In this document: one piece after another, positions 11,991-30,787 of the stretch
How positions within the stretch are numbered: the first letter of the stretch is position 1
How the letters are laid out: the number at the start of each line of letters is the position of its first letter
Assembly (NCBI GenBank): GCA_031270395.1
Contig: JAISXU010000001.1
Coordinates: forward strand, 1 to 64,000
Source: Oscillospiraceae bacterium
GTDB taxonomy: Bacteria > Bacillota > Clostridia > Oscillospirales > Oscillospiraceae
DNA length: 64,000 nt
Direction of reading: 5' to 3'
Notes under the pieces: model-generated
The model's database searches: none
What the model was told of the DNA's origin: nothing
Seen by the model: only the letters and a program-made list of their open reading frames with translations
Made by a program: the position numbers and the translations under genes

Positions 11991-12515
11991 TCAACCGACG
12001 TGGATTACGCGGTCGGGCTCCAGCGGGTGTGCTTCCTTCGTCGCCGTCGGGACGCCTACGGCGATGGCTATTATGAATTTGAACTTGTCCGGGAATTTGA
12101 GTAGCTTGCTGAAATACTCCGCCTTGTCTCCCCTGAAGGCGGCGTCCGGCAGACCGAGTATCACGCTCCCAAGTCCGATAGAGTGGGCCGCAAGCGCTAT
12201 CGTCTGGACGGCGATGCCGCAGTCTACCGCGCTCCATATCCATTCGGGATCGCCGCTCAGAAAGATGGCGGTAGGCGCGCCGTAAAATATATCCATCAAG
12301 TCCGCGCCTAGATTTTTCTTTGCCTCCCCGTTGATTTCGGCGAGGATATCGGGATTTTGAACCACCGAGAAACGCCACGGCTGCGCGTTTCTCGCGCTCG
12401 GCGACTCCTGAGCCGCTTTCAGGAGCGTGTCGAGCTGTTCTTTCGTCAACTGTGTCTGCTCGTACGCGCGTATACTGCGGCGGTCGGATATAGCGGAGAG
12501 GACGGGATTACCCAT
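11991..12515 (-). CDS. Nitroreductase family protein
   Basis: MGNPVLSAISDRRSIRAYEQTQLTKEQLDTLLKAAQESPSARNAQPWRFSVV: nitroreductase N-terminal signature. Confidence 0.92.
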   Translation of the reverse strand: MGNPVLSAISDRRSIRAYEQTQLTKEQLDTLLKAAQESPSARNAQPWRFSVVQNPDILAEINGEAKKNLGADLMDIFYGAPTAIFLSGDPEWIWSAVDCGIAVQTIALAAHSIGLGSVILGLPDAAFRGDKAEYFSKLLKFPDKFKFIIAIAVGVPTATKEAHPLEPDRVIHVG

Positions 12516-12603
12516 AGTGATACACCCCTTAACAAAATTTTGGATTTGATTATAGAATATCACATTTTGTCAGGAAAATCAATTGAGCGCGCCCGAATAT
12601 TAA

Positions 12604-12744
12604 TCCGCTCGAAAAGTCTTATCCTTACGGCAAAGCCGCTCGGGACTTTTCTCGCTCATATGCGCATGTTTTTCGCCGCCTATGGCGGCAACCGAAACAT
12701 ATGCGCGCTATTAATTCGGCACGACATATCGTGCGAATTAATAA
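12604..12744 (+). repeat. 141-bp three-hairpin element, copy A
   Basis: 137/141 identical to the reverse complement of 30240-30380; contains gaaaagtc/gacttttc, gccgcc/ggcggc inside gcgcatgttt/aaacatatgcgc, and ttaattcggcacga/tcgtgcgaattaa. Confidence 0.9.
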
Positions 12745-12785: not shown

Positions 12786-14765
12786 TCAGGATATATCCGC
12801 CATGTCGAGATATTTGTACCCGTTGTCGCTTATATGCTCCTTGCGCCCGGCGAGGTTGTCCCCGAGCAGGAGGTCAAAGACGTCCGACGTGCGCCGGGCG
12901 TCCTCCGGTATGACCTTTATGAGCCGGCGCGTCTTTGGATTCATAGTCGTCAGCCACATCATGTCGGGGTCGTTTTCGCCGAGACCCTTCGAGCGGCTTA
13001 TCGTATGCTTCGCCCCCTGAAAGCCGGCGACGATCTCCGCCTTATCGCGCTCGGAGTACGCGAAATACGTCTTGCCGCCGCAGCTTATCTCAAAGAGCGG
13101 CGATTCCGCTATACATACTAAGCCGTGCTCAATGAGCGACGGCACAAGTCTGTACAGCATCGTGAGGATCATCGCGCGTATGTGGAAACCGTCCACGTCG
13201 GCGTCAGTGCATATTATGACGCGGCACCAGCGCAGAGCGGAGATGTCAAAGGCGCTCATGTCCTTTGCGTGCTTTCCCCGTATTTCGACGCCGCAGCCGA
13301 GCACCTTTATCAGGTCAGTTATTATCTCGTTTTTGAATATCTTATCATAGTCCGCCTTCAGGCAGTTGAGTATCTTGCCGCGCACGGGGATTATGCCCTG
13401 AAACTCGGCGTCCCGGCTGAGCTTGCACGCGCCCAGCGCGCTGTCTCCCTCGACGATGTACAGCTCCCGCTTCGTCACGTCGCGCGTGCGGCAGTCCACA
13501 AACTTCTGCACGCGGCTCGTCAGGTCGGTTCCGCCGGACAGCTTTTTGCGTATATTCAGCCGCGCCTTCTCCGCGGTCTCGCGGCTGCGTTTGTTTATAA
13601 GCGTCTGCTCGGCTATCCTGTCCGCCTCCGCCTTGCGCTCTATGAAGTACACCTCGAGCTGGCTGCGCAGAAATTCCGTCATCGCCTCCTGTATGAACTT
13701 GTTTGTGATGGCCTTTTTCGTCTGATTCTCGTAGGATGTCTGGGTCGAAAAGCAGTTAGTCACGAGCACCAGACAGTCCTGGACGTCGGTATAGTTGATC
13801 TTGCTCTCGTTTTTCTGGTATTTGCCCGATTTGCGCAGATACGCGTCGATCTCGGAGACAAAAGCGCTCCTTACGGCCTTCTCGGGTGCGCCCCCGTGCT
13901 CCAGCCACGACGAGTTGTGGTAGTATTCGACGACGTTTACCCTGTTCGAGAAACAAAACGCGGCGGAGAGCCTCACCTTGTACTCCGGCTTGTCGGCGCG
14001 GTCACTGCCCCGCCTCTCGCCCTCGATGTATACGGGCTGTGTCAGCGCGTCCTCCCCCGCAAGCTCGCGGATGTAGCCCGTAATACCCTCCTCGTACAGA
14101 AAATCGACCGTCTCAAAGCCGTCGTCCGTCTGGTTTTTGAACCTGAACGTGACGCCGGCGTTCACAACGGCCTGCCGTTTCAGCGTATCGGTAAAATATT
14201 CTGCGGGTATGGATATATCCGTAAACACCTCGATGTCGGGCTTCCACCTGATTATGGAGCCTGTCCGGCGCTCCTTGTATTCCTCGGCTTTAAGTCCGCC
14301 TATATTCTCTCCCTTTTCAAAGTGCAGAACGTACTTTTTGCCGTCCCGGCAGACCTGCACGTCCATATATTCCGAGGAATACTGCGTGGCGCACGAGCCG
14401 AGTCCGTTGAGTCCCAGCGAGAACTCGTAGTTCTCCCCCGTATCGTTGCGGTATTTGCCGCCCGCGTACATCTCACAAAAGACAAGCTCCCAGTTGTACC
14501 TGTTTTCATTGGGGTTCCAGTCCACGGGACAGCCGCGTCCAAAGTCCTCTATTTCGATGGAGCAGTCGGCGAAGCGCGTGACGATAATGAGCTTCCCATG
14601 CCCCTCGCGCGCCTCGTCGATGGCGTTGCTGAGTATCTCGAATACGGCGTGCTCGCAACCCTCAAGTCCGTCGGAACCGAAGATAACTCCCGGACGCTTT
14701 CTCACCCGCTCCGCGCCCTTTAATGCGCTTATACTGTCGTTGCCGTACGTCTCAACGCGTTTCAT
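12786..14765 (-). CDS. Type IIA DNA topoisomerase subunit B (ParE/GyrB-like)
   Basis: GHKL ATPase (EILSNAIDEAREG), TOPRIM EGDSALGACKL and DADVDGFHIRAMILTMLYRLVPSLIEHG. Confidence 0.9.
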   Translation of the reverse strand: MKRVETYGNDSISALKGAERVRKRPGVIFGSDGLEGCEHAVFEILSNAIDEAREGHGKLIIVTRFADCSIEIEDFGRGCPVDWNPNENRYNWELVFCEMYAGGKYRNDTGENYEFSLGLNGLGSCATQYSSEYMDVQVCRDGKKYVLHFEKGENIGGLKAEEYKERRTGSIIRWKPDIEVFTDISIPAEYFTDTLKRQAVVNAGVTFRFKNQTDDGFETVDFLYEEGITGYIRELAGEDALTQPVYIEGERRGSDRADKPEYKVRLSAAFCFSNRVNVVEYYHNSSWLEHGGAPEKAVRSAFVSEIDAYLRKSGKYQKNESKINYTDVQDCLVLVTNCFSTQTSYENQTKKAITNKFIQEAMTEFLRSQLEVYFIERKAEADRIAEQTLINKRSRETAEKARLNIRKKLSGGTDLTSRVQKFVDCRTRDVTKRELYIVEGDSALGACKLSRDAEFQGIIPVRGKILNCLKADYDKIFKNEIITDLIKVLGCGVEIRGKHAKDMSAFDISALRWCRVIICTDADVDGFHIRAMILTMLYRLVPSLIEHGLVCIAESPLFEISCGGKTYFAYSERDKAEIVAGFQGAKHTISRSKGLGENDPDMMWLTTMNPKTRRLIKVIPEDARRTSDVFDLLLGDNLAGRKEHISDNGYKYLDMADIS

Positions 14766-28976: not shown

Positions 28977-30053
28977 TCATTTAATCTCTCCGTCGCAATA
29001 CTCGCAGTATAACCGTCCGGGCGTCCGGGCGTCCTCACGGCTGAGCTGCGGAAGGTATGTCTCCGCTCGCGTGACGCAGCTCGGGTTCGGGCAGACGGCG
29101 CCGCCGTTTTGCGCGGCGGTACGGACGGGCGCGGCCGGCTCGCGTCCGAGACGCGTGAGCGTGAGAAGCAGCGCCATCCTTATATACATGCCGTAACGCG
29201 CCTGCTCGAAATACACCGCCCTCGGGTCGCCGTCCACGTCGGGGGCTATCTCCTCAAGGCGCGGCAGCGGGTGCATAATGAGCATGTCCCGCCGCGCGGC
29301 GTCCAGCGCGTCTCTCCTGAGTACATAAGTTCCCCGCAGTCTGTCGTACTCGGCGGGATCGCCGAACCGCTCGCGCTGTATGCGCGTCATGTAGAGTACG
29401 TCGAGCTCCGGCAGCGTCCGGTGAAGATCGGAGACCTCAAAAAAAACCGCCCCCTCCCCGCGCAGACGCGCGAGCACATAGTCGGGAGTTCTCAACTCCG
29501 GGGGCGATATCAGATAATATGTAATATCCCTGAATTTTGACAGCGCGAGAATGAGCGAATGTACGGTACGGCCATACCGGAGGTCGCCGCAGATGCCTAT
29601 TGTCATACCGCCTATGCCGCCGCGCAGACGCGCTATCGTTGTCATGTCCGTCAACGTCTGCGTGGGGTGATGGTGTCCGCCGTCGCCGGCGTTTATCAGC
29701 GGCAGCTCGCTGTACAGCGACGCCGCGAGCGCCGCTCCCTCGAGCGGGCTCCGCAGCACGATGGCGTCGGCGTAGGAACCGGCGACGCGCACGGTATCGG
29801 CGAGCGTCTCTCCCTTTGCGGCAGACGTGGCGTTTGGCTCGGCAAAGCCAAACACGCTCCCGCCGAGCCGCAGCATCGCGGACTGAAACGAAAAGTTAGT
29901 ACGGGTACTCGGTTCATAAAAAAGCGCCGCCAGAACCTTGCCTCTGCACGCGTCAACGTAGTCTCCGGGGCGGTCGATTATCTCGCGGCACAACGAATAC
30001 AGCGCGTCCCAACCGTCGGGCGAGACGTCCTCGATGCTGATGAGATTGCGCAT
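28977..30053 (-). CDS. pyrB: Aspartate carbamoyltransferase with C-terminal PyrI-like zinc-binding extension
   Basis: YEPSTRTNFSFQSAMLRLGG, HHHPTQTLTDMTTI, MHPLPRLEEIAPDVD; C-terminus VCPNPSCVTRAE...LYCEYCDGEIK. Confidence 0.92.
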   Translation of the reverse strand: MRNLISIEDVSPDGWDALYSLCREIIDRPGDYVDACRGKVLAALFYEPSTRTNFSFQSAMLRLGGSVFGFAEPNATSAAKGETLADTVRVAGSYADAIVLRSPLEGAALAASLYSELPLINAGDGGHHHPTQTLTDMTTIARLRGGIGGMTIGICGDLRYGRTVHSLILALSKFRDITYYLISPPELRTPDYVLARLRGEGAVFFEVSDLHRTLPELDVLYMTRIQRERFGDPAEYDRLRGTYVLRRDALDAARRDMLIMHPLPRLEEIAPDVDGDPRAVYFEQARYGMYIRMALLLTLTRLGREPAAPVRTAAQNGGAVCPNPSCVTRAETYLPQLSREDARTPGRLYCEYCDGEIK

Positions 30054-30239: not shown

Positions 30240-30380
30240 TTATTAATTCGCGCGATATGTCGTGCCGAATTAATATCGCGCATATGTTTCGGTTGCCGCC
30301 ATAGGCGGCGAGAAACATGCGCATATGAGCGAGAAAAGTCCCGAGCGGCTTTGCCGTAAGGACAAGACTTTTCGAGCGGA
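30240..30380 (-). repeat. 141-bp three-hairpin element, copy B (inverted relative to copy A)
   Basis: Reverse complement matches 12604-12744 at 137/141 positions with no gaps. Confidence 0.9.
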
Positions 30381-30411
30381 GTAGTATTACCCCGTCAACC
30401 GAAAGACAGCA

Positions 30412-30488
30412 TGGCGCGCCGGAGAAGACTCGAACTCCCGACCTTCTGGTCCGTAGCCAGACGCTCTATCCAACTGAGCTACCGGCGC
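30412..30488 (-). tRNA. tRNA-Arg (anticodon ACG), CCA encoded
   Basis: Reverse complement GCGCCGGTAGCTCAGTTGGATAGAGCGTCTGGCTACGGACCAGAAGGTCGGGAGTTCGAGTCTTCTCCGGCGCGCCA forms a cloverleaf, loop CTACGGA. Confidence 0.95.
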
Positions 30489-30551
30489 ACAACTCGCAAC
30501 GGGGGTGTATATTATCACAGTTTACCGGGTAATGCAAGAGTTTTTTAATTC

Positions 30552-30729
30552 CGTTTGTCACGGCTTCGCCGTAACAAACGAGTTACGAGGGTTGGATCTC
30601 GCGCTGCGGCGCTCGCAAAGTGTCAGCGTCGGTAAATGAATTACCGACACTGACGGAGATATAACAATTTTTCCTCCGTCGCACGGGGCGCACTCCTTCG
30701 CAAAAATTCTTTTCGCCACAGGCGAAAAG
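30552..30729 (+). promoter_or_regulatory. Cluster of hairpins upstream of the 30.79 kb gene (candidate structured leader)
   Basis: cgtttgt..acggc-ttc-gccgt..acaaacg (30552-30580); gtcagcgtcggtaa/ttaccgacactgac (30622-30654, 13/14); gacggag/ctccgtc; cttttcgcc-aca-ggcgaaaag (30709-30729). Confidence 0.5.
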
Positions 30730-30787
30730 GACGTGAGATCGAAAATGGGTACATACGAAATTATTTAATTTCATACTGGAGGTGGTA

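Follow-up and report, generated by a model that had tools for sequence, protein, structure and literature searches.

Short, folded and dispersed repeats of several kinds have been described in bacteria, and MITEs, the BOX element (PMC3049150) and the Correia and Rickettsia palindromic elements (PMC10969869) are relatives in kind of the repeat that we describe here, which has two inverted copies in a 64,000-nucleotide stretch of an Oscillospiraceae genome (the window). BOX of Streptococcus pneumoniae, as portrayed in the passages of PMC3049150 devoted to it, is likewise small, modular, highly folded and intergenic, with a middle module that occurs in tandem and a mobilizing enzyme that is as unproven as ours. 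Compared by description rather than by alignment, the two have no noted resemblance in sequence, BOX being ordered boxA-(boxB)n-boxC and our element (hp1-hp2)n-hp3; here the middle hairpin is common to several genera and the outer modules vary, and the same BOX passages mention no precise placement at a -10 box or between Shine-Dalgarno and ATG, unlike the families B and C described below. Correia elements, the MITEs of Neisseria, are also short, lie upstream of genes and carry promoter sequences (PMC10969869), but have 26-bp terminal inverted repeats (PMC3049150), whereas our elements have end palindromes tied to the target signal, with no target-site duplication found for families A or C. 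Rickettsia palindromic elements resemble ours as palindromic repeats of ~150 bp that occur at many unrelated genes and are apparently tolerated by the host; they sit in-frame within coding sequences (PMC10969869), whereas the elements here occupy promoters, the gap between Shine-Dalgarno and ATG, or the space between genes. REPs and REPINs with their RAYT (PMC2817692) share with ours the habit of abundant extragenic palindromes, although most carriers here are without a Y1 transposase and the element consists of three hairpins that differ from one another, with a bulge in the core.

The two window copies, 12604-12744 and 30240-30380 on the minus strand, align by blastn without gaps over 141 columns, 137 of them identical (97.16%), which reproduces the identity, equal length and absence of indels in the original prediction; as it had also stated, no conserved ORF was seen in the element. 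Aligned with 24 other copies, the element, which we call family A, starts a few bases to the left of 12604, and in most copies base 12744 already belongs to the flank. Its boundaries run from TATTA[A/C]-TCCGCTCG on the left to CGAATTAATA on the right (~12598-12743 for copy 1), and the 26-copy alignment and genome matches place copy 1 at 12598..12743 (+), adding the left TATTAA and dropping one flank base, and copy 2 at 30241..30386 (-). Copy 1 is flanked by a nitroreductase family gene (11991..12515, -) and a gene for a GyrB/ParE-type topoisomerase subunit (12786..14765, -), and copy 2 lies between a tRNA gene (30415-30488, -) and an aspartate carbamoyltransferase gene (28977..30053, -). The latter joins a catalytic aspartate carbamoyltransferase to a C-terminal PyrI zinc-domain match, which suggests a fused PyrB-PyrI product.

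Folding bears out the three consecutive hairpins that had been proposed, with minimum free energies of -62.6 kcal/mol on the plus strand (z -5.1) and -72.9 kcal/mol on the minus strand (z -6.4) and 0 of 200 shuffles equally stable on either. In copy 1, hp1 occupies 12606..12655 (+; CGCTCGAAAAGTC..GACTTTTCTCGC), and its stem covaries in a relative, G052 (GAAACAAAAGTC..GACTTTTGTTTC). The second hairpin, hp2, delimited by alignment and covariation at 12662..12706 (+) and at 30278..30322 (-) in copy 2, consists in copy 1 of GCGC, an AT bulge, ATGTTTC/GAAACAT, a UC/AACC internal loop and a GCCGCC..GGCGGC stem; copy 1 has TTTTTCGCC where nearly all other copies have TTTCTCGCC, and the core of copy 2 is exactly CTCGCC..GGCAACCG. 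The third, hp3, at 12709..12743 (+), is the palindrome TATTAATTCGGCACGA-CATA-TCGTGCGAATTAATA, and in a copy from another species (L055) both sides of its stem are altered in a compensatory change (AATACG..CGTATT). These compensatory changes in relatives support the structural constraint that had been put forward.

In the host assembly (2.17 Mb, 95 contigs, 88.7% complete), blastn returned 46 matches to the element, the last three being reverse matches of the palindromic hp3. About 26 copies are near-complete and ~18 are cut by contig ends, at 94-99% identity, a copy count far above chance expectation. Many host contigs break inside family A, often with an overlap of 113-119 nt, as expected where near-identical copies break an assembly, and at three places (C6, C46 and C31) hp1-hp2 is repeated in tandem with a period of 110-112 bp and a single hp3. 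The flanks of the copies are unrelated, which speaks against segmental duplication as their source, and no match to the element was found on a phage or plasmid. By blastn, family A is absent from 39 relatives, two of them congeners; the exact core pattern recovered one copy, 94% identical, in a MAG of another Oscillospiraceae species (L055), whose genome holds no other match.

Two family A copies are lacking at the orthologous spots of congeners (G001:C28 and G002:C101), in comparisons that fall in poorly conserved intergenic DNA with spacers too diverged to give an exact joint. At C47:16098, G001 keeps both flanking genes around a short spacer without the element, and in G002 a fragment of another repeat lies there. 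The sequence at C46:49770 is GCGCGGCGC-TTAATAA[element]CTT-CGCG in the host and GCGCGGCGC-AACATTC-CGCG in G002. A copy of a sister family, C, is likewise missing from G002 at C46:55999. Family A ends in TATTAA/TTAATA and sits in AT-rich DNA between genes, often directly at a TAA stop codon and mostly antisense to neighbouring genes; compared as candidate terminal inverted repeats, its ends TATTAATCCGC and TATTAATTCGC match at 10/11 positions, but the left 6 bp vary between copies. Family A is a recently spread, non-coding, MITE-like repeat: the many near-identical copies and their absence from congeners support the recent mobility originally proposed, and 'MITE-like dispersed structured element' was right in kind. 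Like MITEs, it is short and non-coding and occurs dispersed in many near-identical copies; the target-site duplication of MITEs, which the original prediction suggested looking for, was found for neither A nor C, neither of which has a covarying direct repeat.

Searching with a covariance model of the copies brought up diverged relatives from six further genera within the same family, the strongest match being in G052 (112 bits), with 11 matches each in G046 and G075; one match in G086 (L062) was judged false, a terminator-like hairpin. The outcomes that would have counted against the original prediction were not seen: the element is neither confined to two copies nor devoid of homologues, and it matches no Rfam family, only sub-threshold chance matches being returned. 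One of these, to folP, scores 25 bits against a cut-off of 99 and lies on the opposite strand, mostly on hp1. All relatives share one layout, palindrome, hp2, palindrome, with sequence conservation confined to hp2. In the consensus, stem 1 measures ~3 bp and its 3' side is followed by a bulge of 2 nt, mostly AT; stem 2 has 7 bp with C-G as the closing pair, and an internal loop, invariably UC/AACC, separates it from stem 3, which carries the loop. The core pattern CTCGCCN{4,22}GGCAACCG has 90 matches in the host (1 for its reversed control), 32 in G121, 29 in G046, 17 in G075 and few elsewhere, with reversed controls at 0-2 matches per genome. In a set of 34 distinct hp2 sequences, standard pairs fill 97.7% of pair cells, and both partners have changed in 105 cells, against 28.6 in shuffles and 6-13 in slid registers. 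Most members were gathered by the exact core pattern, which inflates some hp2 features, and the filter on stem 2 demanded four pairs; neither affects the outer pairs or how varied the pair types are. The strong covariation spans ~20 genomes. With its bulged hp2 and UC/AACC loop between two palindromes, family A is a member of a superfamily of three-hairpin elements defined by that hairpin.

The host carries two sister families, B and C, that share hp2, lie in sense orientation to genes and precede unrelated genes, including gyrB, aspS, smpB, murB, rnhA, yajC and cmk, some of which are essential. Family B has an extended -10 box (TGnTAnAAT) at its start and at its end, with the downstream gene on the same strand at 21 of 24 tabulated entries. 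The -35 score in its flank is highest at a spacing of 16-19 nt, and TTGACA or a one-mismatch version is present at four loci. An identical 8-bp -10 variant occupies both ends in 12/16 copies (3.2 expected), so that the ends form -10-containing direct repeats. Its hp1 arms, 15 of them distinct among 22, follow the local -10 box in their variation, with 97.5% paired and 7/12 pairs doubly changed.

Family C is located between Shine-Dalgarno and ATG and ends exactly 2 nt before the ATG in 14/17 copies, each of these 14 ATGs opening a frame of 76-491 codons. A displaced Shine-Dalgarno lies just outside the left end in 11/14, where it would stand at normal spacing once the left flank is joined to the gene (19% in shifted controls), and in 0/14 is one found at proper spacing inside the element. 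The congener G001 holds a diverged copy that is placed likewise. We rejected a leader peptide in family C hp3 (MTMPFHDRFVPEVKRKAWS), which is open in most copies, interrupted in L190 and stopless in the G001 copy. Several copies (L190, L184, L182 and others) have an in-frame ATG within the hp3 arm (ATGGTCATANNNATG), because of which automatic gene callers probably misplace the start codon of family C genes by four residues.

Outside the host genus, in G121, GGAGGAT lies in or just beside the right arm of hp3 with an ATG a few nucleotides on in 10/11 copies, and the copy L302 folds with hp2 as in the superfamily and its Shine-Dalgarno paired. In G129, at least 3 of 7 copies (L221, L222 and L224) have an hp1 that pairs the final 14-18 nt of the upstream gene with a perfect inverted copy directly behind the stop codon, which falls inside or close to the hp1 loop; the sequence differs per locus. 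L226 has the same stop-codon hairpin by eye, and none of 48 window genes used as controls has such a palindrome over its stop codon.

The element is probably a short, non-autonomous, MITE-like mobile repeat within this three-hairpin superfamily, with hp2 as its likely recognition site. The shared bulged hairpin would be read in trans, by an enzyme or RNA-binding protein whose gene lies elsewhere, and an enzyme acting on hp2 would move the elements. The outer palindromes, which differ among families, may fix where each inserts: A in intergenic AT-rich spots, B in promoters, C between Shine-Dalgarno and ATG. Insertion would be tolerated if the interrupted signal is supplied anew or bridged by the folded ends: the -10 in family B and, in the G121 family, the Shine-Dalgarno carried by the hp3 arm. 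Against this reading stand the lack of a target-site duplication in A and C, a search of one candidate family (Y1_Tnp) that identified no partner transposase, and the orientation of the families, sense in B and C and mostly antisense in A, which would be unusual in a simple MITE.

A bolder version, which we hold tentatively and regard as possible rather than likely, is that these elements form a new mobile class that inserts with nucleotide precision into expression signals (the -10, the gap between Shine-Dalgarno and ATG, the stop codon) and stays harmless through hairpins that copy or bridge the signal, the outer hairpins of some lineages arising at insertion as inverted copies of target flanks and a putative enzyme reading the bulged hairpin as RNA or single-stranded DNA. 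The precision at -10 and Shine-Dalgarno-ATG sites and the target-matched arms are the features that could make a new kind, and we found no published description of this combination in the open-access literature. If true, bacteria harbour mobile repeats that have start signals of essential genes as their target yet do not silence these genes, which raises the questions of which enzyme reads the shared hairpin and how ribosomes initiate with ~140 folded nucleotides between Shine-Dalgarno and start codon.

The leader position of the B, C and G121 copies, in 5' regions and in sense orientation, also fits a family of cis-regulatory RNAs, in which a regulator of translation or transcription would bind hp2 and the genes behind the elements would be under their control. 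The covariation of hp2, which resembles that of a conserved RNA, its invariant internal loop and the pairing of hp3 with the Shine-Dalgarno in G121 and G129 copies point the same way. We nevertheless consider it unlikely: the downstream genes, flgB and pduL among them besides those named above, have no common function, family A is mostly antisense with near-identical copies recently dispersed, and no Rfam family corresponds.

The G129 and family B arms raise a further alternative, that outer hairpins are built at insertion, with an enzyme inserting hp2 and snap-back synthesis copying the flanks inverted, so that arms match the target. The perfect inverted gene ends of G129, seen in 0/48 control genes, and the family B hp1 arms that track the local -10 box are what such synthesis would give; compensatory mutation under selection gives the same picture, however, and the G129 copies are few. 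In A and C, hp1 and hp3 are constant across loci, which indicates that their arms are inherited, and we judge this route improbable as well.

The least probable reading, to which we give very little weight, is that of REPs or REPINs mobilized by a RAYT (Y1 HUH), or of a non-autonomous IS200/IS605 element acting on folded single-stranded DNA: the abundance of hairpins, the lack of a target-site duplication and a left flank consensus, TATTA[A/C], that resembles the short target of IS200/IS605 ends are in keeping with it, but a search covering one candidate transposase family, Y1_Tnp (PF01797), found no member in the host (88.7% complete) or in the carriers G046, G075, G129 and G049 (94-100% complete), members being present only in G121 and G083 among the genomes searched, which makes the REPIN-like and REP-associated transposase part of the original prediction unlikely, and the element has three unlike hairpins where a REPIN has a pair of inverted REP hairpins that carry a conserved tetranucleotide.

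Other dispersed repeats occur alongside this MITE-like element. On host contig C46, a locus (L241, 6110-6320) holds more short repeats with many matches in G002. In the window, a second dispersed repeat of ~220 bp (30546-30765) adjoins family A copy 2; it has hairpins of its own (CGTTTGTCACGGC..GCCGTAACAAACG and GTCGGTAA..TTACCGAC) and recurs dozens of times, at 76-96% identity, in the host and in both congeners.
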